Assembly: GCA_028873845.1 (NCBI GenBank)
Contig: JAPPNO010000049.1
Location: 1-38,531 of the forward strand
DNA from: Gemmatimonadota bacterium
GTDB taxonomy: Bacteria; Gemmatimonadota; Gemmatimonadetes; Longimicrobiales; Gaopeijiaceae
Length of the DNA: 38,531 nt
Direction of reading: 5' to 3'
The notes beneath the pieces are model-generated. The model did not search any database. It was given only the letters and a program-made list of their open reading frames with translations, and was not told the origin of the DNA. A program made the translations under genes and the position numbers. Shown here piece after piece: positions 16,281 to 36,299 of the stretch. How positions within the stretch are numbered: position 1 is the stretch's first letter; every line of letters starts with the position of its first letter.

Positions 16281-17309
16281 CTACTCGAGATCCCTGCGGT
16301 AACGGGTTGCCTTGTATTCCTCCACCCAGGCCCGGGAGCTGCGCCACCGGCCGCTCGAGTTGCGGACCGCTCGAAGCCTGCCGCGTCCGGCTGCCGCGCG
16401 GAGGGCTGGAGCATTGAGGTCCGGTGTTGCCAGGGCGCTCAGGGGCACCAGGCGGGCCGGTCCGGCGACCGCCGGAATGACGAATTGGTAGAGGTTGTCG
16501 AGAATCGCGCGGGCGAGCATCTCTCCCAATGGACCGGACTCTCCTCGATCCGCCTTCCGGAGGGCGGCGAGGTAGCGTGAGCGTTCGCGCTTGTAGATGA
16601 TCGCGGGCGGGTACCCGAGCCGGACGAGGACCAGGTTCAGAAGCAGACGTCCCGTTCGCCCGTTGCCATCGAGGAACGGATGAATCTGTTCGAACCGGCA
16701 ATGGGCCTCGGCAAGAGACTCGGGAAGGCTCGACGACGCGGCATCGAGCTTGTTGACCTCCTCAACCCAGGTATCCATCTCCGAGGCAACGAGTGGCCAC
16801 GATACGGGAGTCAATCCCCCGGGAAACGGCCGGATGTCGTGTTGGCGGAAGTTGCCGGGTGTCTCCCGATCCGTGGCGTCGGGGTGGGGCACCACCTCCC
16901 AGACCGGCGACAATGCCGTGTGGTGAACCTGCCGGACCTCGGCCAGGCTCAGGAAGGCTCCGGGGTGGCAGAGGCCGTTCCGGTGGACCGCTTGCCGGTA
17001 CACCCACTCGGCCGCTGTAGCGTACCCTCGAACCTCCAGGTACTCCCGCAGTTCGCCGTCGCCGACGGCCCGCCCCTCCGCCAGGAGTTGCTCGACCTGT
17101 TTCAAGACCAGAGTATTACCCTCGATCGCCGTGGAATGATGGGCCTCCCGGTACCAGATTCCGCGCCAGATTCCGGAAGCCTCTTGTGGGCTCGGCAGGC
17201 CGCCCAGGCGCTCCCACAGCTCGGCGACATCGGCTCGTAGACGACTGTAGACTTCTCGGCGAGGCGGGCGGCCCGGGCGTCGGGGTCGGTCTGAAATGTG
17301 TTCGGTCAT
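16281..17309 (-). CDS. Fic family protein (predicted AMP-transferase)
   Basis: This is a 342-residue protein with the full Fic active site HPFLDGNGRTGR (H210 to R221). The N-terminal inhibitory motif STAIEGN (S59 to N65) fits (S/T)xxxE(G/N), so it is a class II Fic with a built-in inhibitory helix. The family transfers AMP, or less often other groups, to hydroxyl side chains of target proteins; solitary Fic proteins occur as toxins and as defence genes (SoFic type). The C-terminal 80 residues are basic (RSSRAWVEEYKATRYRRDLE) and may bind DNA or a partner. The ATG overlaps the stop of the frame-extended TOPRIM gene upstream (ATGA). It lies at the left edge of the accessory island. Confidence 0.9.
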   Translation of the reverse strand: MTEHISDRPRRPGRPPRREVYSRLRADVAELWERLGGLPSPQEASGIWRGIWYREAHHSTAIEGNTLVLKQVEQLLAEGRAVGDGELREYLEVRGYATAAEWVYRQAVHRNGLCHPGAFLSLAEVRQVHHTALSPVWEVVPHPDATDRETPGNFRQHDIRPFPGGLTPVSWPLVASEMDTWVEEVNKLDAASSSLPESLAEAHCRFEQIHPFLDGNGRTGRLLLNLVLVRLGYPPAIIYKRERSRYLAALRKADRGESGPLGEMLARAILDNLYQFVIPAVAGPARLVPLSALATPDLNAPALRAAAGRGRLRAVRNSSGRWRSSRAWVEEYKATRYRRDLE

Positions 17310-18280
17310 GGAGACGCTAATCTAACAGAACAATTGTTTTCGTCGATTCGGAGGGATTTTCCGCAACGGCAAGCGTGTTTTTTCTCCCGTGGGGCCGGGT
17401 TTTTCTTGCGAATTATTTGTTCGATTCTGGAACCTGAAATGTAACAGAATACTTTTAGGAACCAATCCCATGACCTCCGCGGCGTCCGACACGTCAGCTT
17501 CAAGCGGTTCCGCGACCGGACGTTCGAGCTGGACGAAACGACGGTGCGGTGGAGGTCCCGGATCCTGTCGGGGCGGGGTGGAGGCGGATGGTTTCGTGGG
17601 CGTCTTCCAGGTCGAAGCGGTAGCGGCGGCCGCGGTAGTTGAAGGTGTTGATCGCGAGGAGGCGGTCCGCGAGGATGTCGTGCAGGACGACGTTGCGGAG
17701 GCGGCCGGCGCGGTGGTGGAGGGCGGTGGGGTACGAGAGTGGGGTGCTTGCGCAGCTCCTCGTCGTGTCGCGCCGCGCGTTCGAGGTCGCCGAGGGAGAA
17801 TCGCTGCCGTAGCCGATCACCGGTCAGTGACGACTTGGAGTATGATGACCAGAACTTCCGGAGCTGCTTCTCCGCATCTTGCGCCGGTACCCTGCGCGCC
17901 TCCCACCCCTCGTGCAACCGTACGAGCAACCCTTCGAGGTTCGGCTCGATGAGCACCGCTTCCAGTCCGCGCCTTTCGGCCTCCGTCAGCGCATCACGGC
18001 CCGCGGCTCGATCCGCCTGCAGACGGTCCGCGTCCAGCAGCACCAAACGCGCCGCTATTCCGCCCCTATCGGGATGCCGCTTCAGACGGCGCGCGGTCTC
18101 CCTGACGACTTCCATCGAGTCGCCGCCATTGCAGGGTCTGGCGTCGAGGTGCACATGAAGACCTGCCTGATCGCACAGCAAGCCGAGAAACCGGACGAAA
18201 GCGCGGTCGCTCTTCCCCTCAACTCCGGCGAAGACGACCCGCCTGCGCGGCACGTCCGGCCGGTGCCGCGATCGCCTCAC
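17306..18280 (-). CDS. TOPRIM-fold predicted nuclease (RloB-like), C-terminus replaced
   Basis: Residues 1-178 look like a TOPRIM/RloB-type protein: VVFAGVEGKSD with E21, LVLLDADR with D83 and D85, then IEPNLEGLLVRLHEG and a helical end LERAARHDEELRK. Such proteins are about 190-220 residues long. Here the frame goes on for another 145 residues with Pro/Arg-rich, non-protein-like composition to a stop at 17306, so the natural C-terminus seems lost at about 17743. The ATG overlaps the stop of the AAA ATPase upstream (4 bases), the normal arrangement for ATPase/TOPRIM defence pairs (RloA/RloB, PARIS and split OLD types). The catalytic residues are intact, but whether the altered tail allows activity is unknown. 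Confidence 0.6.
   Translation of the reverse strand: MRRSRHRPDVPRRRVVFAGVEGKSDRAFVRFLGLLCDQAGLHVHLDARPCNGGDSMEVVRETARRLKRHPDRGGIAARLVLLDADRLQADRAAGRDALTEAERRGLEAVLIEPNLEGLLVRLHEGWEARRVPAQDAEKQLRKFWSSYSKSSLTGDRLRQRFSLGDLERAARHDEELRKHPTLVPHRPPPPRRPPPQRRPARHPRGPPPRDQHLQLPRPPLPLRPGRRPRNHPPPPRPDRIRDLHRTVVSSSSNVRSRNRLKLTCRTPRRSWDWFLKVFCYISGSRIEQIIRKKNPAPREKKHACRCGKSLRIDENNCSVRLASP
17329..17338. promoter_or_regulatory. Palindrome upstream of the Fic gene
   Basis: AACAATTGTT is a perfect 10-base palindrome 20 bases before the Fic ATG, in a stretch (17310-17460) much richer in A/T than its surroundings. TAACAGAA overlaps its left edge at 17323-17330 and recurs at 17442-17449. It could be a small operator for autoregulation; no clear -35/-10 pair was found. 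Confidence 0.25.
17469..17546 (+). pseudogene. Possible N-terminal remnant of another AAA/OLD-type ATPase
   Basis: Read from 17469 on the plus strand, the translation LRGVRHVSFKRFRDRTFELDE looks like the first beta strand of a RecF/OLD/AAA-15 ATPase, just before the expected Walker A. The Walker A never appears: after TTV the similarity stops. An ATG at 17470 is one base out of frame with it and an in-frame TAA lies just upstream, so this would be a decayed fragment. It runs opposite to the intact AAA gene at 18277. The evidence is short and based only on pattern. Confidence 0.3.
17575..17748 (-). pseudogene. Unidentified coding remnant behind the TOPRIM domain
   Basis: In the second minus frame, bases 17748 to 17575 translate to a protein-like stretch that includes NVVLHDILADRLLAINTF and YRGRRYRFDLEDAHETIRLH. 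It has ordinary amino-acid balance, unlike the Pro/Arg-rich tail read in the TOPRIM frame. It has no start of its own next to it and ends where the plus-strand ATPase-like remnant begins. It is probably a fragment of a lost gene joined to the TOPRIM gene by a rearrangement. The family was not recognised. Confidence 0.3.
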
Positions 18281-19482
18281 CCGATCCGGGGAATCCCGCC
18301 GAGCACTCCAGCCCGGTACTTGGGGTACAGCCGGACATCGCGGCGAAGACCTCGAACATCCTGGGCACCGTATACCTGTGTCGCGCCTCCCCCATCTTTC
18401 TCGACGATGAAGACCTCTTCCTTCTCCAGTTCGTCAAGGAGGCCGACATGGTGCGAAGTCACGAGAAGCTGGGCACCCCGGGAATTGCTCTCGCGCGAGC
18501 GGAACAGTCGCAGCAGTTCGGCCACCAGGTCCACATGGAGGTCACCGTCGATTTCGTCCAGAACCGCCAGACCGGACACATCGAGCGCGTGCTTGACCAT
18601 CGGCAGCAGGTGGAACAGGCGCCGGGTGCCCCTTGATTCCAGGCCGAGGACGACAGGGGCGTCCAATCCATGGTGCTCGAACCGCACGAACCTGGTCCCT
18701 TCCCCATCCCGAGCGACCTCGAGACCTCGGATTCCCGCATCGATACGACCGAGCTGGGTCTCCGCCCAACGCCTCGAGTCGGGATCGGCCTCGATCCATC
18801 CGATCGCCGTTTCGGTGTCGAGCGAACGCGTATCGTTACCGACGACGTTGGTAGTGTTTCCGAGCCAGCCCCGCATCCAGTCCGCGATGCGTCGCGCCAA
18901 TGGCACGTTGAACATGGCCATCGTGGCGATCACCGACGTGGTCGGACCGAGCCCCCGCAGCCGGTCGTCCGACGGCCGGACCCCGAAGTCGCGTGACACG
19001 TAGACCGGCGCATCCTGGCCACGCCGCTCGTACAGCCTCCGCTTCCGCCCCCTTGGGAAGTGGAGGAGCGCCTCCCGGATCACGGACATGTGTTCGACCC
19101 CGGTCTCGGACGGCGTCCGCCCGACCATCAGTTCGTACCGGAATCGCTGCGAGCCGTTCCCGGGCGACAACCAGTCCCATTCGCCCTCCAGCGAGAACCG
19201 AGTCGGTTCCCAACGGGTTTCATCGCTCAGAAAGGGAACCAGCCAGATGGTCTCGTTGAAGAGGGAGACGTAACGCGCCACATCCACCAAGGCACGCAGG
19301 AGGGTCGTCTTTCCGCACCCGTTGGGTCCCATGAGGACGGCGACGGCGGGCAGCTGGAGGTCCGGCTTGACGCTGCTGTGGCGGAAGCACGCCAAGTCCG
19401 GAGCCGTGCCCCGAATCCGCAGATCAAGGGTCGCCGTGTCCCGAACCGATCCGTAGTTGGATACAGAGAAAGCGTGAATCAT
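18277..19482 (-). CDS. AAA family ATPase (RloA/OLD-like), partner of the TOPRIM protein
   Basis: This is a 401-residue protein. The N-terminus MIHAFSVSNYGSVRDTATLDL is the classic first strand of the AAA-15/AAA-21 group. Walker A is MGPNGCGKTT (about 51-60). A long helical insertion follows, then Walker B-like GLAVLDEIDGDLH and the H-loop region LLVTSHHVGLLDEL. Such ATPases sense DNA or phage products and control a TOPRIM nuclease made by the next gene. ATG 19482 is chosen; an in-frame TTG at 19515 coincides with the -35 element. The -10 box ends five bases before the ATG and no Shine-Dalgarno is present, so the mRNA may be leaderless. Its stop overlaps the TOPRIM start. Confidence 0.8.
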   Translation of the reverse strand: MIHAFSVSNYGSVRDTATLDLRIRGTAPDLACFRHSSVKPDLQLPAVAVLMGPNGCGKTTLLRALVDVARYVSLFNETIWLVPFLSDETRWEPTRFSLEGEWDWLSPGNGSQRFRYELMVGRTPSETGVEHMSVIREALLHFPRGRKRRLYERRGQDAPVYVSRDFGVRPSDDRLRGLGPTTSVIATMAMFNVPLARRIADWMRGWLGNTTNVVGNDTRSLDTETAIGWIEADPDSRRWAETQLGRIDAGIRGLEVARDGEGTRFVRFEHHGLDAPVVLGLESRGTRRLFHLLPMVKHALDVSGLAVLDEIDGDLHVDLVAELLRLFRSRESNSRGAQLLVTSHHVGLLDELEKEEVFIVEKDGGGATQVYGAQDVRGLRRDVRLYPKYRAGVLGGIPRIG

Positions 19483-19487
19483 ATTCC

Positions 19488-19515
19488 ATATTAGCGGTTT
19501 TTTCGTGGAGGTCAA
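19488..19515 (-). promoter_or_regulatory. Sigma-70-like promoter of the AAA/TOPRIM pair
   Basis: On the minus strand, TTGACC (19515-19510), a 16-base spacer and TAATAT (19493-19488) form a good promoter. The -10 element ends five bases before ATG 19482, so transcription would start at or next to the start codon and give a leaderless message. Confidence 0.5.
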
Positions 19516-19749: not shown

Positions 19750-20385
19750 TCAGGATCCCGAGCCCTTGGGGCGGTAGTCCCGTGGGTCAAGGCACTTGTC
19801 GTACAGCGCCCGGTCGATCCTGATCCAGTCCGTCTTGTCGATTCCCCTCCGGTTCCGAGCAGCGGGGCTGTGCGGAAAGGCGCTTGCGATCTTGATCCAT
19901 CGCTGCTGCACCCGTGCGATGGTTCGTATCTCCTCGGCAACCTCCGAGAGATCCTGATCCTGGCTGAAGACGAGGGCGACATCGAATTCGTGGCGGTTGG
20001 CGAGTGCGATCACGTCCAGCGCGATCCGCACGTCGATCCCCTTCTCCTCTCCGGCCAGAAAGAAGTGCTCTGTGCCGTCGGGCAGGGACACGCGGCGGTT
20101 GCGGTACCGGAGAGGCCTGCTATATACGACCACGCCGCGTCGTCCCATGAACGCGAGCTTTCGGGTCCAGAAGGCGTGCCACCTGGGATTGTCGCCGACA
20201 TCGGGGATTCCGGTGTAGAAGCGGACTTGGGCCAGCTCCCAACCCTGCCGCAGACAGACTCGCTCGGCGAGCGCGGTGACGTCGTAGCTGGGGTACGTGT
20301 ATCCGAACGCCGCCCGGGCGGCGTGGAACAGGTTCTGGCCGTCCACGAAGGCGACCGCACGCTTGGTGAGAGGCTCGCCGCTCAT
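19750..20385 (-). CDS. NYN domain protein (PIN-like predicted ribonuclease)
   Basis: This is a 211-residue protein with the NYN/LabA fold signature. RAVAFVDGQNLF gives D15 and N18, EEKGIDVRIALDVI gives D118, and DVALVFSQDQDLSEVAEEI gives D143 and D145; together these acidic residues form the metal site of PIN-like RNases. It probably cleaves RNA in the cytoplasm. ATG 20385 is chosen because the domain begins ten residues later; the open frame extends to 20484, but that extension crosses a strong terminator hairpin. There is no good Shine-Dalgarno. It lies 267 bases upstream of the AAA/TOPRIM pair on the same strand, within the defence island. Confidence 0.8.
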   Translation of the reverse strand: MSGEPLTKRAVAFVDGQNLFHAARAAFGYTYPSYDVTALAERVCLRQGWELAQVRFYTGIPDVGDNPRWHAFWTRKLAFMGRRGVVVYSRPLRYRNRRVSLPDGTEHFFLAGEEKGIDVRIALDVIALANRHEFDVALVFSQDQDLSEVAEEIRTIARVQQRWIKIASAFPHSPAARNRRGIDKTDWIRIDRALYDKCLDPRDYRPKGSGS

Positions 20386-20396
20386 TGAGCATCCGG

Positions 20397-20440
20397 AAAA
20401 AAATAACCCCGCCCGAGGCCTCTCGGCGTGTCGGGCGGGG
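20397..20440 (-). terminator. Intrinsic terminator inside the NYN leader (possible attenuator)
   Basis: On the minus strand a perfect 10-base stem (CCCCGCCCGA at 20431-20440 side, TCGGGCGGGG at 20407-20416 side) with a 14-base loop is followed by TTATTTTTTT, a textbook intrinsic terminator. It lies only 11 bases before the NYN start codon and points toward that gene. No minus-strand gene lies upstream to be ended by it, so it may stop leader transcription or end a short RNA from 20441-20690. Confidence 0.65.
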
Positions 20441-20611
20441 AGGAAGTATGGAAGAATCGTAGCGGGGGCAGGGGGAGAGGTCAACTGCCACTGCCGCTCC
20501 GTGGAGAACCTGGATATCGCTACCCATCCCGAATCGCGCCCATTCTAGGGAGAAACCTCTCACTGGCCCTCTGTTCGAATCCGCCCACACGGGAACAGTT
20601 GGAGCGTGACG

Positions 20612-20641
20612 TTGCGGACTCGTGGAATGATCCGTTACGAT
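20612..20641 (+). promoter_or_regulatory. Candidate promoter of the HTH-nuclease-STAND gene
   Basis: TTGCGG (20612-20617), an 18-base spacer and TACGAT (20636-20641) lie about 50 bases before ATG 20690. GGAG at 20677-20680, nine bases before the ATG, is the ribosome binding site. TACGAT recurs at 20665-20670, which could matter for autoregulation by the HTH domain. Confidence 0.3.
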
Positions 20642-20689
20642 ACTTTAGATATCCCAGTGACCGCTACGATCCATACGGAGCCGTATTCC

Positions 20690-23600
20690 ATGGCGAAACC
20701 CAACCACGAAATGACTCCAGCCCGCATCCGCACCATCCGGAAGCGCCTCAACCTCACCCAGGAGGAGGCCGGCAAGCTCCTTGGTGGCGGGGCGCGGGCA
20801 TTCACCAAGTACGAGTCGGGCACCATGAGGCCCAGGGCGGCCGCGAGCAACCTGCTTCGAGTGCTGGAGGCCCATCCCGGAGCGGCGTGGGTGCTCCGGG
20901 GCGATGACGCGCCGCCGCCGCGGCCCAGGGCTCCGTCCCCGTTCGACGTGCAGGGCGAGGATCTCGCCGACCTCCGCGCCCACCAGCTCCACGAGCTACT
21001 GCGTCGGCTCCTGAGCGTCGAGGCGCAGGCGAACGGCATTCCGCTCCACGGCATCCACGTGTCCAGCAACATCGCTGCGGCCGACGGCGGGGAGGATGGG
21101 CGCATCGCCTGGCAGGGCGGCCCGGAGTGGACCAACTTCCTGCCCTCACGACTCTGTCAATTCCAACTGAAAGCGGGGGAGATCGCGCCATCCAGGGCGG
21201 GGCGCGAGGTGGTTGCACGCGGCAGGGTGAAACCGATGGTCCGCGCGGTCCTTGAGGACGGGGGCCACTACGTGCTGCTGTGTACACGCCGGTACACGCA
21301 GGAGAAGATCGCGAAGCGGGAGGAACGGATCCACGCGGCGCTGGCCGATGCCGGGCTAGTCGTTCCACCGGACCGGATCCACTTCCGGGACGCGGACAAG
21401 ATCGCGGGCTGGGTCAACGCACATCCGTCAGTCGGTCGTTGGGTTCAGGAGAAGGTCGGACTCGGGCGCGCGGGCCTGTTCGCCTCGTGGGGCCACTGGC
21501 GAGGCCGAAGCGAGCATCTGGTTCCCTGGGTCGAAGACGATCGGCTGTCCCTCCTGCGAGGCACGATCCGGGAGCGATTGACCCAGCCGCGCACGTTCCT
21601 CCGTGTAGTGGGCCTCTCGGGCGTGGGCAAGTCCAGGCTCTGTCTTGAGGCCTTGGGCGGGACTGGCGGTGACCCTACGACCGGTCGGCCGGTGCGCGAT
21701 CTGGTGATGTACGCGGTGCTGTCCGAAATGCCCGACCGAGCGCTGTCCGACATCGTCGACCAACTGGCGTCTGCTGGTGCTCGCGCCGTCGTCGTGGTGG
21801 ACGACTGCGATCCGGAGAGTCACGACACGCTGGTGAGGCTGGTACGGCGCACCGGAAGCGAAGTCTCCCTGCTCACGATTGATGACGAGATTCCGGCCGA
21901 ACCGGCCATTGACACCCACACGGTGAGGATCGCGGAGGCGCCTGGGAGTGTCGTCGAGGGGGTTGTCGAGCATGTCGCCGCAACTCTCTCGACCTTTGAC
22001 CGACACCGCCTTGCACGCATGGCGGATGGGTTTCCCGAAGTCGCGATCCGTATCGTTGCCGACGCGGGCGCCACCCAGCTCTTCGACCCGCGCCCGGAGC
22101 GGCTCGTTACCGGCTTCGTGTTGGGCAGGGACACGCGAGAAGGCGATCTCCTGCTTCGTTGCGCCATGCTGCTGGCGGCCTTTCGCGTTGTGCGGGTGGA
22201 GCCCACGATCCCCGCGTGGCCCAACCCTTCCCACACGCAAACGACCGAAGACTGCCTGGCTCCGGTCGCGGCCCTGGGTCGCGGCCTTACCTGGGAGGAC
22301 CTGCACGCGGCAGCGTGCCGACTCAAGGAGCGGGGAGTACTCAAGCGCCGCGGCGGACTCGGGTCCATCCAGCCTCGGCCGATCGCCATTCGGCTTGCAG
22401 AGCGCCAATGGCGTGAGTGGGATCGTGGAAAATGGGATCGGGTGTTTTCGGGCGACCTCGGGTCCGACCTCACCAGAGTAGCCGCCGAACGTCTGGCTCA
22501 GATGGGCGGCAGGCCGATCGCCACCGAGGTCGCTAAGCATGTTTGTCGGGACGGCGGTCCCCTCGACAGCGGCGTCAGCAAGAGCGCGCGGGCCGACATT
22601 CTCTCCTGCCTGGCCCAAGTCGACGTGGCGGCCGTGGCTGAGCACATCGAACGTTTCCTCGATGACCATCCGGACCCGTCACTCATCGGCGACGATGAGC
22701 GGAACGGCCTCCTCCGTGCCCTCAGCAGAATCGCCTTCTCGGCGGCGGCATTCGCGGTCGGCACCCATCTGATGCTGCGGCTGCTGGAGATTCGGGACGG
22801 AGTGGACAGCGAGCATGTGGCGCGCCCGTTCACTGATCTCTTTCCTGCAGTCTCGGGCGCGACGGAGGCCGACGGCAACGCCCGGCTGGCCTTCCTCGAC
22901 CAAGCGCTCGAGGCAAGCGATGCGGCCCGATTGACGTACCTGGCGCGTGCGCTGGCGTCTGGCTGCGATCTAGGGAGCCACTTGAGCGCGATCGGCCCTG
23001 AAGTGCACGGGTCGCGGCGAACCCTGAATCGATGGCACCCGGCCACGCAGACCGAGCTGCGCGAGTATCTCGGAGGGTGCATCGCTCGTCTCGCCACGCT
23101 CGCGATTCGAAAGGACGACATCGGCGCCTGGTGCCGCAACGAGCTGGGCGGATCCATCGCTCATCTAATCCACCACAGCTTCATCGACGACGTGGAGCAG
23201 TCGATCCAGCGAGTTGTTGGCGCTGGCCACAGGTGGACGCTCGCTCTACGCCAGCTCCACGGGGCTCTCGTGCATTTCTCCGAGGCGATCGACGACGCGA
23301 CGGCACAGCGCGTCCGGTCCCTGATCGACTTGCTCGCGCCGACTGACCTATATGATCGGGTACGGGCACTGGTGACCGATCCGCCCATGCCCGACGATTC
23401 GAATATCGAGCCAATTTCGGAGCAAGTTGCGGCCATGCGCATCAAGATTGACGCCTTGGCGGACGAGCTCCTTCAGCAACCCACAGCCCTACGCGACATC
23501 CTCCCAAGGTTGAGCCGGGAGCGGCAAGTTCACGCGACCGAGCTGGGAGAGTCCATCGCCAACCGGGCACGGTCTCCCTTGAACTGGCTGGATCCCATTG

Positions 23601-24781
23601 TCGAGGCGGTTGGGGAGGTGCCAGACGGCGAACGCAACCACGATCTGCTTCTCGGGTTCGTCGCGGCTCTCACGATGCAGCGTCCCGACCATGCTGAGTC
23701 GATCAAGCAGAGGGCCATCGAATCCTCCGCTCTCGCGCCAGCCTTTCCAGCACTCTGTCGTCGGATCGGGCTCACGTCAGCCGACGTCGGGCAGGGCATC
23801 GATGGATTGGCCCGGGGGACCATTCCGTCCGCGGCGATGGTGTCCTGGATGCGCCCGGAGACGCTGGCCCCGCTGCCGCATGAGGCGGTGGCCGATCTGC
23901 TCGACGCCTTGTTCGACCATGACGCGACGTCGTTCGCGATCGGAGTCACCACCCTGTGGATGATGACGCGGGACGAAGATCGGAAGTCGGAGGAGGCCGA
24001 AGAGTCAGGGCTCCGAATCGGGGGTTTTCGGCCCCAAGTCCTGGCGATGGCGCGGAACTCCGGTCGATGGCGGGCGCGGGACTCCCAGGCTTCGACCCCG
24101 CCCGCCGACTGGTGCTTCGCGCAGGTCATGCTACGGGCGCTAGGCTCGGGCCACGAAGACGACCACGCCCGCGAGACGGCGCTGGCATTCTCGAAGGCGC
24201 TGACGTACGGCCATCGGAACGGCTGGCTCGACCCGCTAGGCCGGACGCTACGGGACGTCCTGCGCGAACTGTTATCCGGCTTTCCGGGAATCGCGTGGCA
24301 GCTCATCGGCTCGGAAATCGTCGCCAACGAGCGGTTCGCGCGTCTCATGAAGTTCAGCTTGGGCGAGAGGGGCGAGCCGTCCCGCGGCGATCCACCGATC
24401 CTGGCCTTGTCTGAGGAGGTGCTGTTGGCGTGGTGCCACGCTAGCCCCGAGCGCGCCCCGGCCTTCCTAGCGGGGTGCCTACCCGTCCTCGCGACACCCG
24501 ACGAGTCGGCGAACCCTCCGCTCCATCCGGTGATGTCGCGCGTCATCGACGAATTCGGCCAGCGATCCGATGTACGGGAGGCGTTTGAGCACGGCCTGTC
24601 CCCCAAGGGCGTATACAGTTCACTGGCGAACCACCACGCCAGCCAGGAGGGTGCGCTTGCGACGCTGCGGAACCACCGGACGCCGGAGGTTCGTCGGTGG
24701 GCGAGGAGGTTGCACCGGGAAACGGGGCGTGTCGTCGACAGCGCGAGGGTGCGGAATGAGGAAATGGGGGTGGGGGGATGA
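20690..24781 (+). CDS. HTH - PD-(D/E)XK-like nuclease - STAND NTPase fusion, predicted defence protein
   Basis: This is a 1363-residue protein. Residues 9-65 are an XRE/MqsA-type helix-turn-helix (MTPARIRTIRKRLNLTQEEA, then LLRVLEAHPGAAWVL). Residues about 95-200 look like a restriction-endonuclease fold: E111 in LLSVEAQANGI, ADGGEDGRIAW with D132/D136, and the Q-x-K pair in CQFQLKA (Q159, K161). A P-loop NTPase follows: Walker A GLSGVGKS (308-315) and Walker B VVVVDDCD (367-374) in the STAND style. The last 850 or so residues are helical and unrecognised and probably form the sensor. By analogy with Avs-type STAND proteins, target binding by the C-terminus would trigger oligomerisation and DNA cleavage. 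The HTH may autoregulate. The start is fixed by GGAG at 20677. It is a single-gene unit, convergent with the next gene. Confidence 0.75.
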   Translation: MAKPNHEMTPARIRTIRKRLNLTQEEAGKLLGGGARAFTKYESGTMRPRAAASNLLRVLEAHPGAAWVLRGDDAPPPRPRAPSPFDVQGEDLADLRAHQLHELLRRLLSVEAQANGIPLHGIHVSSNIAAADGGEDGRIAWQGGPEWTNFLPSRLCQFQLKAGEIAPSRAGREVVARGRVKPMVRAVLEDGGHYVLLCTRRYTQEKIAKREERIHAALADAGLVVPPDRIHFRDADKIAGWVNAHPSVGRWVQEKVGLGRAGLFASWGHWRGRSEHLVPWVEDDRLSLLRGTIRERLTQPRTFLRVVGLSGVGKSRLCLEALGGTGGDPTTGRPVRDLVMYAVLSEMPDRALSDIVDQLASAGARAVVVVDDCDPESHDTLVRLVRRTGSEVSLLTIDDEIPAEPAIDTHTVRIAEAPGSVVEGVVEHVAATLSTFDRHRLARMADGFPEVAIRIVADAGATQLFDPRPERLVTGFVLGRDTREGDLLLRCAMLLAAFRVVRVEPTIPAWPNPSHTQTTEDCLAPVAALGRGLTWEDLHAAACRLKERGVLKRRGGLGSIQPRPIAIRLAERQWREWDRGKWDRVFSGDLGSDLTRVAAERLAQMGGRPIATEVAKHVCRDGGPLDSGVSKSARADILSCLAQVDVAAVAEHIERFLDDHPDPSLIGDDERNGLLRALSRIAFSAAAFAVGTHLMLRLLEIRDGVDSEHVARPFTDLFPAVSGATEADGNARLAFLDQALEASDAARLTYLARALASGCDLGSHLSAIGPEVHGSRRTLNRWHPATQTELREYLGGCIARLATLAIRKDDIGAWCRNELGGSIAHLIHHSFIDDVEQSIQRVVGAGHRWTLALRQLHGALVHFSEAIDDATAQRVRSLIDLLAPTDLYDRVRALVTDPPMPDDSNIEPISEQVAAMRIKIDALADELLQQPTALRDILPRLSRERQVHATELGESIANRARSPLNWLDPIVEAVGEVPDGERNHDLLLGFVAALTMQRPDHAESIKQRAIESSALAPAFPALCRRIGLTSADVGQGIDGLARGTIPSAAMVSWMRPETLAPLPHEAVADLLDALFDHDATSFAIGVTTLWMMTRDEDRKSEEAEESGLRIGGFRPQVLAMARNSGRWRARDSQASTPPADWCFAQVMLRALGSGHEDDHARETALAFSKALTYGHRNGWLDPLGRTLRDVLRELLSGFPGIAWQLIGSEIVANERFARLMKFSLGERGEPSRGDPPILALSEEVLLAWCHASPERAPAFLAGCLPVLATPDESANPPLHPVMSRVIDEFGQRSDVREAFEHGLSPKGVYSSLANHHASQEGALATLRNHRTPEVRRWARRLHRETGRVVDSARVRNEEMGVGG

Positions 24782-24908: not shown

Positions 24909-26069
24909 CTACGCCCCCCCCTTCTCCCGTAGAATCGTGACCTGCCGGGGATTCCGAAGCCGCCAGCGCTGGCCCTCGCGCCGAAGGTCGCCTTCAAGGG
25001 ACACGCTCAGACGGTCGCGGTGGGCACGAGTGATTTCGCGGTAGTCCGAAGGGTCGAAGACCACCTTCACGGAGGTCATCCGTCCGTCCACAAACGCCCT
25101 GATCGTGGCAATCCCATGCGATTCGCCCTTCCCCCGCGCCAGCCCCGACACGTAGCCTTGGATCTCCTCGTCGGTTCGCTCCTGCCGGTCCGCCAGCACT
25201 CGCGCCGCCTCGTCAAGGACCGGCGCGTCAGGTGGCCTGAAACTCACCACCAACCTCTCGGGCGCCGCAGTGCTGAACGGCCGTGTCATGGCCCAGCTCA
25301 CGGACACTTCGAGCCCCCCACCCACCTCGGTGAGCCTCGCGACCGAACGGCACAGGTTGGCGCTGACACCGTCGTTCACCCGCTCTTCGAATTCGCCGAT
25401 TCCGGCCGCGTCCCGGTTGACCCGGTCGGTCGCCGTCCTGGAGGCTCGTAGGCCGGAGACCAGCTTCCGGGCGACCCTCCGCTCGAAGGGCTCCTCGTAG
25501 AGGTCCTTGACGGGCTCCTCGCGAAACAGCTTCTTCTGCAGGGAGGGCGGCACCGGCGAGAGGATGTTGATCACGAAGCTGCCGGGCTCGGTCTGGCCCA
25601 GACGCACCTTGCGCAAGTAGTCGGTGGCCCGCTTGTTCCGACCCGCCCGGTACATCCGCTGCGGCCTGTCCGCCGAGCACGCCGCGGCCAGCAGTAGGCG
25701 CTTCGCTTCGGCCAGCGCGGCCGCGCCGTCGGAGATGCTGACCGCGTTGTCGTCGTCTGCGTTCGGAAGGCGCACTCGGATCAGGTCCGACTCGGCCAGA
25801 GCGAGGTCCACGAGCACGGCGAGCATCCGTCGCCCTTCGAGCCGGGCCAACTGCTCTGCGATCTGGTAGATCCTCGTACCGTAGTCACCGTAGTGCTCGA
25901 ACGCCGGCACGATCGCGGCCTCCCGCTCGTCCTCAGCCCATACGTAGATGTCCGCCGTGTCGCCACCGATCGACTCCTCACGATACCATCCGTTCGCGCG
26001 GAGGTAGGCGTGGACGGAGCGAAGGCCGATGTTCCCGGCGAGCGCGGCTTCGGTTGCCTGAGTGCTCAT
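24909..26069 (-). CDS. Conserved-looking protein of unknown function, partner of DUF4365
   Basis: This is a 386-residue soluble protein that I do not recognise as a named family. The N-terminus has a mixed alpha/beta region (SVHAYLRANGWYREE, then GGDTADIYVWAEDE). The middle is rich in charged helices. The C-terminal about 80 residues (TIRAFVDGRMTSVKVVFDPSDYREITRAH, then VSLEGDLRREGQRWRL) look like a small beta barrel. ATG 26069 has AAGGAGG five bases upstream and overlaps the DUF4365 stop (ATGA), so the two genes form a translationally coupled pair. No membrane segment or catalytic motif is visible. Confidence 0.65.
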   Translation of the reverse strand: MSTQATEAALAGNIGLRSVHAYLRANGWYREESIGGDTADIYVWAEDEREAAIVPAFEHYGDYGTRIYQIAEQLARLEGRRMLAVLVDLALAESDLIRVRLPNADDDNAVSISDGAAALAEAKRLLLAAACSADRPQRMYRAGRNKRATDYLRKVRLGQTEPGSFVINILSPVPPSLQKKLFREEPVKDLYEEPFERRVARKLVSGLRASRTATDRVNRDAAGIGEFEERVNDGVSANLCRSVARLTEVGGGLEVSVSWAMTRPFSTAAPERLVVSFRPPDAPVLDEAARVLADRQERTDEEIQGYVSGLARGKGESHGIATIRAFVDGRMTSVKVVFDPSDYREITRAHRDRLSVSLEGDLRREGQRWRLRNPRQVTILREKGGA

Positions 26070-26560
26070 GAAGTCCTCCTTCGCAAGTGGGCGAACAGTG
26101 GGGCGAGGCCCGACCGGTCGAAGCGCTGGGTTCGGGGGATGACCACCGTTGTCGAGCCAGCGTCCAACGGATCCCGTCCCGCAAGCGAGATCCACCAGCC
26201 ACACTTCATCAAGATCATACGCTCGGGGGTGCAATTCAGCCACTGGGACTCGTCGGGGGGAAGCTCCAGGACAACCAGCACCAACGGGACCGTCCGTTGA
26301 GTCACGAGATCATTGTAGTTCTTTCGCTTTAGCCGGAAGTGGAGACCGTCGTGGTGCTTCCGGGCGTTCGACGTGGCCTTCAGCTGCAGATCCACGGCCG
26401 CTGGGCTCGGTGGGCCGGACCGAATGGTCGCGTCGATGCTGTCCATGTCCGGATCCGGTCCCTGCTGGAACATGAGGCCATCCCTCGCGGCGAGCGCCGC
26501 GACGAACGCGTGAGAGAGCTTTTCCTTGCGCTGGTTGTCGGTGAGGATCGGTGGAGCCAT
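26066..26560 (-). CDS. DUF4365 domain protein (restriction-endonuclease-like fold)
   Basis: This is a 164-residue protein covering the whole DUF4365 domain. It starts with a helix TDNQRKEKLSHAFVAALAARDG. The acidic loop DPDMDSIDATI (D38 to D43) is followed by the strand VDLQLKATS with Q59 and K61, the D...QxK layout of PD-(D/E)XK enzymes. Then come LVLVVLELPPDESQW and MILMKCGWWISLAG, typical of the domain. It is probably a DNA- or RNA-cutting effector whose partner is the next gene. ATG 26560 is chosen because the domain starts there; the frame upstream to 26749 is low complexity. It is the first gene of a two-gene minus-strand unit, divergent from the IetAS-like pair. Confidence 0.75.
   Translation of the reverse strand: MAPPILTDNQRKEKLSHAFVAALAARDGLMFQQGPDPDMDSIDATIRSGPPSPAAVDLQLKATSNARKHHDGLHFRLKRKNYNDLVTQRTVPLVLVVLELPPDESQWLNCTPERMILMKCGWWISLAGRDPLDAGSTTVVIPRTQRFDRSGLAPLFAHLRRRTS
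26075..26081 (-). promoter_or_regulatory. Ribosome binding site that fixes the start of the 386-residue protein
   Basis: AAGGAGG on the minus strand lies five bases before ATG 26069, inside the end of the DUF4365 gene. It rules out the longer open frame that begins at 26243. Confidence 0.7.
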
Positions 26561-26864
26561 GGAAGGAGCGTCCTTGGTTCCGGGGTTGACTGAGGATGAA
26601 GGGCAATAAGATACCATCGCTGAGCAGATGCGGATTCGGCTGCGGGTGGCGGACTCGGGGCCTCTCGCCACGGTCCAAGCGTCAGGCGCGGCCCCCTTGT
26701 CCGCCGACGGCGACGCCACACTGCGCCGCGACCGGGTTCCCCCCGCCAACCGTCAACCGGCTACATTCAAGTTGGGCACGCGGCTTGCAGGCCGCCCAGC
26801 CGCGGACCAACGTGGTGCCAGCAATGGAACCGGATCCCGACGTTACCGAGAGGAGCACATCGAC
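26561..26864. other. Divergent intergenic region between DUF4365 and IetA-like genes
   Basis: These 304 bases have no convincing gene. TTGACT (26586-26591) and TAAGAT (26607-26612), 15 bases apart, are a weak plus-strand promoter candidate for the ATPase gene, with a leader of about 250 bases. A GC-rich hairpin (GCGGC, TTGCAG, GCCGC) lies near 26781-26796. Confidence 0.35.
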
Positions 26865-27836
26865 ATGGCAAGAGCCGATCTGCTGGTCTCTCTCGTCCGA
26901 GCCAGCGCCGAGGGCGACCGGGGGCGGGTCCGTAAGGCAACCGAGGCGATCATCGCCGAGGAGCGGGCGAAGAACCACCACGTGCTGGCGGATCGCCTGA
27001 CCCGGGCCGTCGCCAACGGGGCGGAGAGTCCCCGAGCGGCGTTCGTGGTGCACGGGAGCGCATGGCGCCGGTTCGCGACCGAGCTGGTGCCGCGACGGCG
27101 TTTGGAGGACCTCGTCCTTTCCGACGCGAACAGGGCGGCCTGCCGAGACCTGATCGAGGAGCAGCGGAGGGCGTCCGTTCTGCGCGCGCATTCGTTGGAG
27201 CCCCGGCATCGCGTGCTTCTCGTCGGACCGCCGGGGAATGGAAAAACGACGCTGGCCGAAGCCATCGCCGAAGCGCTCTCGGTCCCCTTCATCGTGGTGC
27301 GCTACGAAACGATGATCGGGAGCTACCTCGGCGAGACCGCGAACCGCCTGAAGCGCGTGGTCGACTACGCCCGCACCACACCCTGCGTTCTCTTCTTCGA
27401 CGAGTTCGACGCCGTGGCGAAGGAACGGGGGGACACCCACGAGACGGGCGAGATCAAGCGCGTGGTCACCTCGCTCCTGATGCAGGTCGACGGACTGCCG
27501 AGCTACACGGTGACCGTGGCCGCCACCAACCACCCCGAGCTGCTCGATCGCGCGGTGTGGCGGAGGTTCCAGCTGCGTCTCTCGCTCGATCCGCCGTCGG
27601 AGAGGGGCCTCGCCAGGTACCTTGAGAAGTTCGGCCGCCACATGGGCGGTGGGCTTGGGCACGCCCCGGCCAAGCTGGCGGCCCGGCTGGGGCCGGTCAG
27701 CTACGCCGAGGCCGAGGAGTTCTGCCTTGACGTGAAGAGGCGGTTCGCGCTGGGGACTGGTGGTGTCGGCATGAAGGCGGCCGTGACTGCTACGCTCAAG
27801 CTCTGGGAAGAGCGGGGGCGGGTGGTGGCCGAGTAG
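26865..27836 (+). CDS. ietA: AAA+ ATPase of an IetAS-type system
   Basis: This is a 323-residue protein. A helical N-terminus (about 1-100) precedes one AAA+ module: Walker A GPPGNGKTT (121-129), Walker B CVLFFDEFDA (174-183), sensor-1 N222 in AATNHPELLDRA, and Arg residues 233-234 in RAVWRRF as the finger. A helical lid ends the protein. The fold is close to FtsH/katanin-like AAA ATPases. GAGAGGAG lies upstream of ATG 26865. The gene sits 19 bases before an S8 subtilase, the arrangement of IetA/IetS, described for plasmid incompatibility in Agrobacterium and reported as an anti-phage system (Gao et al. 2020). The ATPase probably controls the protease. The symbol rests on architecture and context, not on a search. 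Confidence 0.8.
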   Translation: MARADLLVSLVRASAEGDRGRVRKATEAIIAEERAKNHHVLADRLTRAVANGAESPRAAFVVHGSAWRRFATELVPRRRLEDLVLSDANRAACRDLIEEQRRASVLRAHSLEPRHRVLLVGPPGNGKTTLAEAIAEALSVPFIVVRYETMIGSYLGETANRLKRVVDYARTTPCVLFFDEFDAVAKERGDTHETGEIKRVVTSLLMQVDGLPSYTVTVAATNHPELLDRAVWRRFQLRLSLDPPSERGLARYLEKFGRHMGGGLGHAPAKLAARLGPVSYAEAEEFCLDVKRRFALGTGGVGMKAAVTATLKLWEERGRVVAE

Positions 27837-27855
27837 GGGCGCGACGCGACGAGAC

Positions 27856-30456
27856 ATGTCCGAGTTTCCGCTCCTGCCGCTTCCGGCACTGGAGATCAGG
27901 GTCCCGCCCCCCGGTAGAGGCTTCCCGCCAACGGTGCCGCGGCATCCTCCTCGTGCGCGTCAAGCTGAGCGGCTGGGCCCGGTATTCGACAGGCTGGCGT
28001 CGGTGTTTGCGGGTGGCCGTGATCCGGTGGAGTTGCGCGAAGACCCCGCGAGTCTGGCTCCAGAGAGGGTCATCGTGTTCGAGGTGGCTGGATCAATCAG
28101 CGATTTCGTTGCCGCGTGCCGAAAGGTGCCCGGATTGGAGTACCTCGCCGAGCAAGATACGGAGTTCGAACCCGACGACGACTTCTGGGTTGTTGACACG
28201 CGGGAGGGGAAAAAGGGGCAGCGCCGCGGCGACAAGGCAGTGGGGGGACGGCTGTACGCAGCCATGCCGGACCTTCGAGCGCTGAGAGAGCTCCTCAGCC
28301 TATGGGAGCGCCATCAGCGGCGCTTGAAGCCCGAACCCGGACGCAAGGCTTGGTTCGACCTCTTCAAGCTCCTTCGGGTTCTTCGGCCTTGGGGACCCGA
28401 GGACAGGATTCCCGACGAACTACGCGAACACTTCCTGTTCGATATCGAGTCTGACCCCGAGTCAACGGTCGCGCTTGAAGTCGAGTTGTGGTATCGGGAG
28501 AGCGGGGCGCAGCGGGAGCGGGCGAGACGCGAGTTGGCTGGGGTCGTGGCTCAAGCGGGCGGATCGATCGTCCATCAGGCCTCCATCCCGCCCATTCGCT
28601 ACGAGGCAGCGCTGATTCGCCTGCCACGACAGGAGGTGAGGCGGGTGATCGATCGGGAACCTGTGCATCTGGTGGTCTGCGACGACATCATGTTCGTCAG
28701 GCCTCAATGCACAGCGTCTCCCCGACCAGTGCAACGTCGCTCATGGCCCGGAGCGGTACCCGAAGGTCCACTCCCCGCACGGGACGAACCCCCGATTGTT
28801 GCACTACTTGACGGCGTGCCCGTCCAGAAGCATCGGCTACTGGAAGGGCGGGTGGCAATCGACGACCCGGACGGTCTTGATCAACAGAGCGTGGTGGCCG
28901 CGCGACGCCACGGCACAGCGATGGCATCGTTGATCATTCATGGAGACCGTAATCGGTCTCAAGCCCCGCTGAATCGATTGATCCACGTCCACCCGGTCAT
29001 CTACGCACCCGAGACTGGCTCAGAGGAGCGGTTCCGGTCGGACCGCCTGTTGGTCGATACCATCTACCGGGCAGTGGTGCGCATGAAGGAGGGGGTTGGC
29101 GGCGCACGTCCGTCCGCTCCCCAGGTCTTCATCGTGAACCTCTCTCTGGGCGACACGCGACGGCCCTACGCGGGCTGGATCAGTCCTTGGGCGCGTCTGC
29201 TCGACCACCTCGCCCATGCCTATGGCATCCTGTTCGTCGTGAGCGCCGGGAACGTCAACCAACCCCTGCCGATCTCGCGATTCGACACCATGACCGCGTT
29301 CGAGGACGCAGATGCGTCCACGCGTGAAGAGGCCTTGCTCGAAGGGCTCGGCGAACAGCGCTCTCAGCGAACGCTCCTGTCACCTTCCGAAGCCATGAAT
29401 GTGCTTACTGTGGGTGCCGCGCACGACGAGGCAGCGCCCGGTGGCCTTGGAGGTATGGGGACCGGCCCGACAGTGGCCCCGTACTTGAACGGTGCGTTGC
29501 CGAACATCAGTTCCGCCATGGGACTCGGGCACCGCAAGGTCATCAAGCCCGACGTCCTCATGCCGGGAGGACGGGAGCATGTCCTGGCGAGTCCACAGGG
29601 TGGCCACATCCACGTCAGGCCCGGGAATCCCGGATCGCGCTTCGGCATCCGAGCGGCGGCACCCGACCTGCAAGGCAGCTTGGACCGGGAGACGAACACC
29701 AGCGGGACCAGCACGGCCGCCGCATTGGCCACACGGGCCGCGCACCAGCTCTACGATGCGCTGATGGATCCACAGAACGGAAGCGTGCTCGCCGACGCGG
29801 ATCCCGAGTACCACGCGGTCGTGGTAAGGGCCCTCCTGGTGCACGCAGCCCGGTGGGACGAGTCGGTGGCGTCCAGGGTCGGCGACCTCTACGGGCCGCA
29901 TGGGCAGGGGAAGCACGTAGAGCGGTTGGACAACGTCGCCCGACTCCTGGGCTACGGAGTTCCGCAAATCACGGAGGCCATGACCTGCACGGCCCACAGG
30001 GCAACGATGGTCGGCTACGGGCGGATCGCGAGCGGGCAGATGGCCGTCTGTCGCCTGCCGCTGCCGCCCAGCCTGTCTCGCGTTGAGGTGCCCCGCACGC
30101 TCACGGTCACCCTTGCCTGGTTCTCCCCCGTCAATGTGCGGCGTCTGGCCTATCGGATGGCGAGGCTCGAAGTGGCGGGAGGCTTCGACGCCGAGTTTGG
30201 AACCTCTCGGCAGAAGAGCCAGCCCAGCGACAGGTCGATTCCGAGGGGAACGCTGTTCCATCAGCGATACCACGGTGAGGAGGCCGTCCAGTTCGTCGCG
30301 GACGGCGAGGTGGAGCTACGCATCACGTGCAAGGAGCCAGCCGGCCCGCTGGACGAGACGATCCGCTACGGTCTTGCGGTCACGATCGAGGCTGGTGAGG
30401 GAATTCCCGTATACGAGGAAGTACGGCAAGCGCTGGCGGTGCGGGCTCGGGCCTGA
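27856..30456 (+). CDS. ietS: S8 subtilisin-like serine protease of an IetAS-type system
   Basis: This is an 866-residue protein without a signal peptide, so it acts in the cytoplasm. Residues 1-310 are an N-terminal extension of unknown fold. The subtilase domain carries the triad D319 (IVALLDG), H352 (RRHGTAMASLI) and S619 (NTSGTSTAAAL); the oxyanion Asn lies in VSAGN. The last 170 or so residues form a beta-rich domain (TLTVTLAWFSP, then EVELRITCKEPAG). A cytoplasmic subtilase next to an AAA ATPase matches IetS. On infection the pair would cleave host or phage proteins; the substrate is unknown. It is the second gene of the operon; no terminator with a T-run was found after it. Confidence 0.85.
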   Translation: MSEFPLLPLPALEIRVPPPGRGFPPTVPRHPPRARQAERLGPVFDRLASVFAGGRDPVELREDPASLAPERVIVFEVAGSISDFVAACRKVPGLEYLAEQDTEFEPDDDFWVVDTREGKKGQRRGDKAVGGRLYAAMPDLRALRELLSLWERHQRRLKPEPGRKAWFDLFKLLRVLRPWGPEDRIPDELREHFLFDIESDPESTVALEVELWYRESGAQRERARRELAGVVAQAGGSIVHQASIPPIRYEAALIRLPRQEVRRVIDREPVHLVVCDDIMFVRPQCTASPRPVQRRSWPGAVPEGPLPARDEPPIVALLDGVPVQKHRLLEGRVAIDDPDGLDQQSVVAARRHGTAMASLIIHGDRNRSQAPLNRLIHVHPVIYAPETGSEERFRSDRLLVDTIYRAVVRMKEGVGGARPSAPQVFIVNLSLGDTRRPYAGWISPWARLLDHLAHAYGILFVVSAGNVNQPLPISRFDTMTAFEDADASTREEALLEGLGEQRSQRTLLSPSEAMNVLTVGAAHDEAAPGGLGGMGTGPTVAPYLNGALPNISSAMGLGHRKVIKPDVLMPGGREHVLASPQGGHIHVRPGNPGSRFGIRAAAPDLQGSLDRETNTSGTSTAAALATRAAHQLYDALMDPQNGSVLADADPEYHAVVVRALLVHAARWDESVASRVGDLYGPHGQGKHVERLDNVARLLGYGVPQITEAMTCTAHRATMVGYGRIASGQMAVCRLPLPPSLSRVEVPRTLTVTLAWFSPVNVRRLAYRMARLEVAGGFDAEFGTSRQKSQPSDRSIPRGTLFHQRYHGEEAVQFVADGEVELRITCKEPAGPLDETIRYGLAVTIEAGEGIPVYEEVRQALAVRARA

Positions 30457-32115: not shown

Positions 32116-35100
32116 CTATGAGACGACCGAGCACCTCGTCCCGCACCGGTAGCGGTACCGGCGCTTGCTCGGTCCAGACGCGGGTTCGTCGTTCTCGCCT
32201 GAGTGATCTGGTAGAAACTCGCACCGAGTGGGAATACCTGTCCACCCGTAGGCCGCGAGGACGGCTTCGTCCATGGCGGCGTGGAGTCGTCGCAGTTCGG
32301 CAATGTCGGGATCGCGCTCATCGGGGTCGTGGAAGCGGTTGTAGGTCTTGGTGAGGCCCTCGTTGTTCATCACCATGAGGTCGGCCCGGAAGTCGTAATA
32401 GGCTTGGCCCGCGGCTTCGAGGGCGGTGTGCGTGGTCCAGCCAGGCGGGAACGGGAATGTCTCGTAGACGTCGGAGGGGGTGTACCGGAGGTCGTCCTTC
32501 AAGGAAGAGCCGAAGAAGCGGGCCCAGATCTCGTGAGGCCGGGATTGGAGGGCGCAAAAGGCGGCGTACGTGCCGAGCGCGAAAACGTTGTGCGGCCCGG
32601 CGTATACCATGTCACGATCCAGGAACGCGAACTGCATATGTTGGCATGTAAAACCGTGAAACAAAACCCTCTCCAAGCCGGCGATCGCAGTCTGGAGCTC
32701 CTTGGCCAGCGATCCGTACTGCCACCAGAACTTCGCGCGCTTCCGCCCAATTGCGTTCTGGGTCAGGTGCACCCGAGCTGGCTTCACCTTGTCCTCCACG
32801 ATCTTCAGCAGATCCGGCCAATCCTGTGCGACCGGGTCCGGATAGTCGGCCGGCACGATCCCGCTCCGCAACCACACCGTGCGCTGTCTTCCGTCCGCAT
32901 CCTCCCATTGTTCGCCGAGATCCGCCCGCCGCAGCGGATATTCCCGGAAATTGATCACGTACCTGCGATGCTCATGAGTCGGGCTCGTATTCACTTCCGA
33001 GCCTCCGATGTACGGGAAAATGGCTTCGGCATTCTTCGAATCCTTCTCGATCAGTCGCCGCATCTCGCTGAGCGGTGACGCCACGCCCTTCGTGTCGGTA
33101 TCGTCGAACGTGAAGCCCATGCCGAGCACGATGCTCCCCTGGAAGCTCTGATCTTCGTTGGCCTCCAGCTTCACCGGATCGTCATGTCCACCGGTGTGGA
33201 AGAGGAAGGCCGTAATCTCGTCGACAGGCCGCCCGTCAAGATGCTTCGACACGAGGAACTCTCCCTTGGCGGCATGCACGACGCTCACGACCACAGCGGC
33301 CTGACCCGGCCATGTGTAGCGGGTGGATGCCCAATAGATCTCTCCGCCATTCTGGCAGATCCACCGAAGCCCGGTGGAGCGCGTGTCGCCCTGCCCGATA
33401 GTGTTCGTCGCGATCAGTCCGAAGGTGCCGCCATCGCGAAGCAGGTCGAACACCCGGCGGAAGAAATGCGCGACGAGGTCCGAGTTTCCGTGGCTCTTCG
33501 CGTGCAGTTCCTTCAGCCACAGCGGGTAGCTGTCGATGGTCGCGGCCGCAACCGTGTTCTTGCCGGCAAACGGCGGATTCCCCACAAACACGTCGAACCC
33601 CGGATTCGTCCGCTCGAACACCTCGGGAAACTCGATCTCCCAGTGGAACGGCGCTAAGACTGGGTTGGCCTTGCGCTTCGCCTCCAGGCGCTCACGGTGC
33701 TCCTTGGTGTCGTCGTCCTGAACCGCAGCAAGGTGGGCAACGCGCCGCGCCTCCCGCGACTTCACCTTCGTCTCCAGGAAGAACGCCTCGACCGCCAGGT
33801 CGCCGAAGAGCCGCACGTCCTTCAGCGCGGCCTCCACCTGTTCCCACTTGTCCTCCAGCTCCCACTGCGGCGTTCCTGGCCCGGCCTCCCGGATTTCCTC
33901 CCGGAGCCTCACAACCCGGTCTACCGCGTCCGACACGCGCGTGTTCAGCTCCAACTGGAGCGGCAACGCGCCTGTCTTCCAGGTAAACGCCGAAATCTGC
34001 CGCCGCGTCAGCCCTACCAGCGAATCCCCATCTCGGAGCGCGTGGTCCACGAAGGTGAGCGCCTCGTCCTTCGCCAGCGTCGCCAGCCAGAGCGACATCT
34101 TGGCCAGATCCACTGCCATCGGATTCCGATCCACGCCGTAGAGGCACTTCTGCGCGACCATGCGTCCCGCCAAGACCAGCTCGTCCTCTCCCGGCGGCAC
34201 CTCAGGTCGGCCCCCGTGCCGCTTCCACGACTCCACCAGCTCGTCGGCCAGCTGGCGACACGCCTCCACCAAGAACGCCCCCGATCCCATCGTCGGATCG
34301 CAGATCTTCAGGTCGAGCAGCTCGGAAGGCCTGGGCCCCCTACCGTTTCCCATGCGGTGCAACACTGGCTCCAGCGCCTTCCTCACGATCGGCTCGGTCA
34401 GCTCGCGCGGCGTATAGTGCGACCCCGAACGCCGCCGTTCGTCGCTAGGCTGCAGGATCATCGCGCCCCGCGGCACCAGATCCGGCGTGGCCGCCGTGTC
34501 CACCACTTTCGCAAGCGCCGCGTGCAGCTCGGTCACCCCCTCTGCCGCCTTGAGCGGCTTCGTCACCGTCGCCGTCAGCTTCCGCTCCGTCCGTTCACGC
34601 ACCCACTTGGCCCGCGCCCCCGGTTCCACCTCCGCCAGTTCTTCCAGATTCACCGTCGTCGACGCCCCACCCTTCTTGTGCGCCCTGATCGCCACCGACC
34701 GCCCCGTCGCCGTCTCCAGTCGGAACCCCATCATCGTCTCGTAGACGGACCCGATCTGCTCCACATCGAGGGCCCGGTACGAGATCCGCTCGCCGTCGAG
34801 CACCAGCAGCTTGTCGAGCACCCTGTAGATCGTCCCGTCGGGCACCAGCGGCACCTTGATCGCCTGTGTCACCTGCGGTGCGCCGCTACCGTGCCACCCC
34901 TCCAGAAACGGAAAGCGGCTGGGGCTGAAGAGCTCCCCCCGCCGGGCCGGCAGCCGCATGCCGCCGGACTTCGCACCGTCGTGAACCATGCGGAAGAGTA
35001 CCACGAGCTGCGCCCATGCCCCGTAGCGGTCGTCCATCGTGTCGGGGTACAGCCCGGCCTCCTCGCGAAGCCGCTCGTAGAGTCCGCCGACCGAGTAGTG

Positions 35101-36054: not shown

Positions 36055-36078
36055 CGCGGCTATTCGGTCTCTGGCCGA

Positions 36079-36092
36079 CGCGGAGTTCCGCG
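36079..36092. promoter_or_regulatory. Dyad CGCGGA-GT-TCCGCG before the methylase gene
   Basis: It is a perfect inverted repeat of 6-base arms with a 2-base spacer, 25 bases upstream of the methylase ATG. The core GGAGTTCC recurs in the dyad at 36300-36313. Confidence 0.4.
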
Positions 36093-36238: not shown

Positions 36239-36299
36239 CGGAGTTGCCCAACCGCCGCGTGCAACCCAACTTGGGGCTCCGCGTTCTCCGGGGCGCTGG

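Follow-up and report, generated by a model that had tools for sequence, protein, structure and literature searches.

How can a cell keep a potentially lethal STAND nuclease quiet and yet have it act fast? The question is open, and most known answers to it are separate regulator genes. It is raised anew by a gene of a Gemmatimonadota bacterium (assembly GCA_028873845.1, contig JAPPNO010000049.1, analysed here over a stretch of 38,531 nucleotides referred to as the window). The gene, at positions 20690–24781 of the forward strand, encodes a 1363-residue protein that begins with a helix-turn-helix (HTH) domain of the MqsA type. We consider it likely that the protein is a one-gene, self-regulating STAND nuclease of the PD-lambda-4_A type to which this HTH was fused once, with a presumed action in defence. 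The effector half of this explanation is based on a tested relative in Escherichia coli, and the regulatory half on the statistics of a predicted operator.

A known defence protein family with an added domain

The open frame is intact and has the codon-position guanine–cytosine pattern of a real gene. An alternative in-frame start, a GTG at 20606, lies upstream of the ATG at 20690; the relatives and the boundary of the HTH favour the ATG. Residues 85–1355 are matched by the PADLOC model PD-Lambda-4_A (PDLC03991) with 253 bits and an E-value of 1.3e-75, covering profile positions 4–1270 of 1283, and the HTH is the only part of the protein outside this model. By this match, the nuclease segment, the nucleoside triphosphatase (NTPase) and the helical C-terminus are together one known defence-protein family. 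The original prediction, made from the letters alone, had placed an HTH, a nuclease-like segment, a STAND-type NTPase and a helical C-terminus on one chain, and both the sequence and the AlphaFold models bear this out; the C-terminus, which it had called unrecognised, belongs to the full-length match.

The HTH is matched by the MqsA antitoxin family (PF15731) at residues 8–63 (53 bits, cut-off 30; model positions 69–124 of 131) and by TIGR03830 (63.7 bits, cut-off 61.8), and the HTH of MqsA in the PDB was also found by sequence (E = 6e-11). In an AlphaFold model of residues 1–500 (mean predicted local distance difference test score, pLDDT, 86), residues 5–70 superpose on the C-terminal domain of MqsA (3fmy) with a Z score of 11.1 and a root mean squared deviation of 1.9 over 66 residues (VIA-align); the identity over 66 residues is 41%. 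The sequence families and the fold thus agree with the MqsA-type HTH first proposed for the N-terminus. In PF15731 and the PDB only the C-terminal HTH of MqsA matches, and the zinc-binding, toxin-neutralising domain is not present. A weak PADLOC match to the HTH came from the capH profile. The recognition helix, GGGPRAFTKYE, is nearly constant among HTH-fused members, and R36 and K40 of the window HTH stand at the DNA-contact positions N97 and R101 of MqsA.

In the nuclease segment, D132, G134, D136, Q159 and K161 are identical across 71 aligned homologues; among 15 diverse members the invariant positions include D132, G133, G134, D136, Q159 and K161, together with G308, G311, G313, K314, D371 and C373 further along the chain. 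The AlphaFold model contains a helix (97–114), three strands (122–124, 137–140 and 155–161), a second helix (182–189) and a last strand (193–198), which in the model is the element order of a restriction-endonuclease core, the third strand carrying Q159xK161. When a profile of 52 members was compared by hhalign with an alignment of 20 Mrr_cat domains, the match had a probability of 77% (E = 2e-5) and placed DGGxD on DGGxD and QxK on QxK, the control HTH alignment reaching 4.9%. The Cap4_nuclease family was touched by one of the 52 members, at 0.026. The nuclease fold was not among the matches of the fold search, whose list was filled by the NTPase, hence this is no evidence against a nuclease.

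The NTPase carries a Walker A motif, GLSGVGKS, whose K314 is invariant in 71 of 71 homologues, and a Walker B aspartate, D371. Its fold resembles CED-4, Dark, Apaf-1 and the NRC4 resistosome (Z 9.8–10.3), tied with the AAA+ proteins NSF and ORC. The C-terminus was modelled as helices only (mean pLDDT 88), and its best Foldseek matches are the HEAT-type solenoids CAND1, importin 13 and SF3B1.

Relatives and the origin of the fusion

When 84,980 species genomes were scanned for the motif DGGED[GA]RI, 77 relatives came out, and the search for homologues with the same domain order found about 30 among them, with the HTH on the same chain. A single-sequence scan of genome contigs with the window protein found no relative. 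The fused members belong to at least seven phyla (Gemmatimonadota, Bacteroidota/Rhodothermota, Pseudomonadota, Nitrospinota, Cyanobacteriota, Dadabacteria and Acidobacteriota), and many come from sponge or marine metagenomes. The plasmid relatives (87 records, 22–28% identity) nearly all begin at query residue 85, as do those in prophage-like viral contigs and in E. coli, which have no HTH. Within E. coli, a relative of an Enterobacter member was found in 173 of 5426 genomes.

In a tree of the protein body (FastTree with its quick type of support values, HTH columns excluded), a branch with support 100 separates the HTH-less members from the HTH-fused ones. On these sequences the split shows a single origin of the fusion, followed by its spread, within a sample that the scan motif biases towards one half of the family, so that fusions in the other half could be missed. 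The fused side also takes in two damaged copies, L101, which is broken into three frames, and L073, which is truncated and has no HTH; a third broken copy, L063, has its body parts about 3 kb apart.

We also considered an HTH encoded as a neighbouring gene of the HTH-less relatives, and rejected it, no MqsA-like HTH being found within the flanks examined. Long HTH-containing frames in two Gemmatimonadota genomes of the same genus (G013 and G021) were set aside for having no match to the body; they encode proteins of 1227 and 982 residues (L043, 5722–9402; L044, 4995–7940), each with an N-terminal HTH and an unrelated body. On a Rhizobium plasmid, the gene next upstream of an HTH-less PD-lambda-4_A relative (L031, 816–4934) encodes a 1372-residue protein with an N-terminal HTH_3 and a large body. 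The match of this protein to the A model is short and weak (residues 245–288), and it is a second, independent design of an HTH plus a large body.

A predicted operator that accompanies the fused domain

The upstream regions of HTH-fused genes have in common an 11-bp palindrome, ACCAT-N-ATGGT. To avoid circularity, all 1024 half-sites were ranked de novo on 15 genes of Pseudomonadota alone; this palindrome came out on top with 13 of the 15 genes, the next motif reaching four. Of 13 held-out fused genes from other phyla, 10 have it with no fewer than 9 of 10 positions matching, and of 36 HTH-less relatives none has it (Fisher p = 3.5e-8 against the held-out genes). The HTH and the operator travel together, because the operator precedes most fused genes and not the HTH-less ones, as self-regulation predicts, and these counts therefore support self-repression well for the clade. 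Proteins of the HTH-fused clade probably control their own production through this predicted operator.

Operator copies are paired at a distance of 28–30 bp in ten loci. In the mqsRA promoter of E. coli, MqsA is known to bind a pair of AACCT-N3-AGGTT palindromes, which by their published coordinates lie about 32 bp apart (PMC4894380), and the two kinds of palindrome have an ACC-N5-GGT frame in common. In two loci, L056 and L071, the pair is spaced by 29 bp and is followed by a PemK/MazF-like toxin gene (PF02452; 5582–5917 with 55 bits and from 5585 with 46 bits, respectively), which lies between the operators and the HTH-STAND gene. The second palindrome overlaps with the start codon of the toxin gene or directly adjoins it, and the pair, now ahead of the inserted gene, has been kept at the head of what is possibly a toxin-STAND operon. 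In L064, the fused gene, which has an operator itself, is immediately preceded by a small HTH-only gene of the MqsA family (5985–6351, 49.5 bits); this duplicated regulator comes with an operator pair of its own.

Two further ideas about the operator were rejected. The first copy does not always lie over a sigma-70 −10 box, only three close relatives (L051, L052 and L074) having a perfect TTGACA at the distance required, and the other loci looking like shuffled sequence. The one match to the operator pair in a viral contig (L163) borders on unrelated phage genes and was taken as chance.

The window copy and the points against self-regulation and nuclease action

Several observations weigh against the reading proposed here, most of all at the window gene itself. 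Between 15187 and 26344, no site agrees with ACCAT-N-ATGGT in as many as 8 of 10 positions, and two other loci, L048 and L063, are also without an operator. The recognition helix of the window protein nearly equals that of operator-bearing relatives, and the operator is absent nonetheless. For the nuclease, the profile of the segment gave no significant sequence match in the PDB and Pfam; the fold assignment, resting on the motif, the secondary structure of the model and the 77% profile match, is likely. The Walker B residue D371 is an aspartate in 68 of 71 homologues and an asparagine in three HTH-fused members. Finally, the partner model PD-lambda-4_B (PDLC03992) found nothing in the bacterium's own genome (96.5% complete, 137 contigs), the E. 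coli control being positive, and nothing in 13 other genomes with fused members.

The sole perfect palindrome in the 4.05-Mb genome lies on another contig and is expected by chance. In the closest relative (G033, 63% identity), ACCTTTATGGT is found 29 bp ahead of the likely start. Upstream of the window gene, the direct repeat CCGTTACGAT / CCGCTACGAT has a spacing of 29 bp, like the operator pairs of the clade; such a repeat at 28–30 bp occurred in 1.7% of simulated sequences, and as it was noticed post hoc it is only suggestive of a diverged operator. The operator of the window copy has diverged or been lost, which makes autoregulation the weakest step here. The earlier proposal that the protein represses its own gene is thus supported for the clade, where the palindrome precedes most HTH-fused genes, and not for the window gene, which has no recognisable copy.

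Proposed mechanism and alternative explanations

In the uninfected cell, the HTH of the protein, which is probably a dimer, would bind the promoter of its own gene and so keep the protein at a low level. The helical C-terminus would sense a phage component, upon which the NTPase would oligomerise and the Mrr-like nuclease would cut DNA, so that phage growth is stopped or the cell is killed. As a tentative extension, which we regard as possible and rather doubtful, the phage-triggered oligomerisation might both activate the nuclease and free the HTH from the operator, allowing more protein to be made in a feed-forward loop contained in a single chain.

The position of the HTH, directly ahead of the nuclease on the same chain, and its preservation across phyla as a fixed fusion and not as a separate regulator gene would also fit a domain that guides or gates the effector by tethering the nuclease to specific DNA of phage or host, the operator being a by-product or a protected self site. 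We consider this unlikely, since the palindrome is concentrated upstream of the protein's own gene, with a lone, chance-expected match elsewhere in the genome, and since the two-copy promoter layout mirrors mqsRA autoregulation. The MqsA-type HTH and the PemK/MazF-like genes of L056 and L071 could likewise point to descent from, or action as, a toxin–antitoxin system in which the HTH protein represses, and perhaps neutralises, a co-encoded toxin. However, neither the window nor most fused loci have a toxin gene in the same operon, the upstream gene in the window is divergent, and the part of MqsA that neutralises the toxin is missing, which leaves this explanation very improbable.

A STAND protein joined to an HTH is a known regulator design, and the window protein might accordingly be a MalT-like transcription regulator of cellular genes in which the nuclease segment is disused. 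The identity of the nuclease residues in 71 of 71 homologues, the defence-island and mobile contexts, and the membership of the HTH-less majority in a phage-defence family all speak against it, and we give it hardly any weight. The self-regulating nuclease, with the steps graded as above, is thus the explanation that we prefer.

Genomic context

The surrounding defence genes, cited in the original prediction as support for the role, proved to be a dense island around the window gene (Table 1): nearly all genes between 16.3 and 38.2 kb are related to defence or mobility, and the genes on the left are ordinary ones (two-component kinases, a sulfate permease, a peptidase and transporters). As its neighbours are divergent or convergent, the window gene is transcribed alone. 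No Argonaute gene was recognised among the window genes scanned, which include one with a pPIWI-associating nuclease domain. The DrmMI-type methylase (32116–36054, 1220 bits) has MmeI-like domains and is possibly a type IIG restriction-modification enzyme; no other DISARM gene was recognised beside it. Given the integrase at its right end, the cluster may be an integrated element. Among 98 neighbours of fused genes scanned with PADLOC, type III and type IIG/II restriction-modification genes were found, with three members per top family; there was no control set, and no enrichment is claimed.

Table 1 Features of the window around the HTH-fused gene
Feature	Position	Strand	Evidence or remarks
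HTH-fused PD-lambda-4_A-like protein, 1363 residues	20690..24781	+	Open frame, PADLOC PDLC03991, same-order homologues
MqsA-type helix-turn-helix, residues 5–70	20702..20899	+	PF15731 and TIGR03830 above cut-off; 3fmy superposition
Mrr-like PD-(D/E)xK-type nuclease segment (likely), residues 85–260 (D132, D136, Q159, K161)	20942..21469	+	Motif, hhalign, AlphaFold helix-strand order
P-loop NTPase, STAND/AAA type, residues 265–500	21482..22189	+	Conservation, fold matches
All-alpha HEAT-like solenoid, residues 501–1363, probable sensor	22190..24778	+	AlphaFold, Foldseek
Candidate diverged operator copy 1, CCGTTACGAT (tentative)	20632..20641	+	Direct repeat, 29 bp spacing
Candidate diverged operator copy 2, CCGCTACGAT (tentative)	20661..20670	+	Direct repeat, 29 bp spacing
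Fic (SoFic-like), unnamed 324-residue gene, AbiLi-like AAA ATPase	16281..19515	-	
NYN-domain HEC-09-like gene, divergent neighbour	19750..20484	-	
PDC-M02B candidate defence gene, convergent neighbour	24909..26243	-	394 bits
IetA and IetS pair	26628..30456	+	467 and 942 bits
pPIWI-associating nuclease domain gene	30949-32079		PF18165, 68 bits
DrmMI/type IIG methylase and GmrSD_N gene	32116..36973	- and +, respectively	
Phage-type integrase, right end of defence cluster	37113-38207		

Comparison with known systems

PD-lambda-4 is a published anti-phage system of E. coli, found by phage selection (Vassallo et al. 2022, PMC9519451). The window protein resembles its A component in full-length homology (residues 85–1355), in the catalytic and P-loop motifs and in body length; it differs in the added MqsA-type HTH and in having no PD-lambda-4_B partner. 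Most fused relatives differ further by an operator of their own, and fused and HTH-less forms are about 20–28% identical to each other. In the E. coli locus L047, the A model matches the A protein with 2524 bits, and the gene for PD-Lambda-4_B comes next; among the loci examined, B is found only there and in L137. The B gene of L047 lies in two frames (9898–10807; 248 and 59 residues) that cover the 303-residue model, and it may be broken in this strain.

With MqsA of the E. coli mqsRA system, the fold and sequence of the HTH are shared, as is the clade's tandem arrangement of promoter palindromes within the common frame. The window protein differs in having no zinc-binding domain and no MqsR toxin, no toxin gene being found in its operon, and the clade palindrome differs in its central bases. 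In Avs (AVAST) proteins, an N-terminal effector is followed by a STAND NTPase and a helical C-terminal sensor. The window protein has this general plan and departs from it by the HTH ahead of the nuclease. The idea of a new type beside Avs was not upheld, for the body belongs to a known family, PD-lambda-4_A, and the PADLOC matches at E-values up to 1 included no Avs model, the presence of Avs models in the PADLOC library not having been checked.

In a literature search that missed most subscription journals, no description of an HTH fused to PD-lambda-4 was found, and nothing joining an MqsA-type HTH with a STAND nuclease. The body family is already known; the HTH fusion and the operator are new as far as these searches reach. 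A defence gene under the transcriptional control of an HTH protein is a feature shared with CapH, BrxR/CapW and RptR. Those regulators, however, are separate genes, whereas the window protein would be repressor and effector on one chain. PD-lambda-4, known from E. coli, is extended here to a broad family that works, or is kept, without its second gene. How such nucleases are kept quiet yet fast can be tested directly on this single fusion, whose co-conserved operator is readable from sequence in many phyla.

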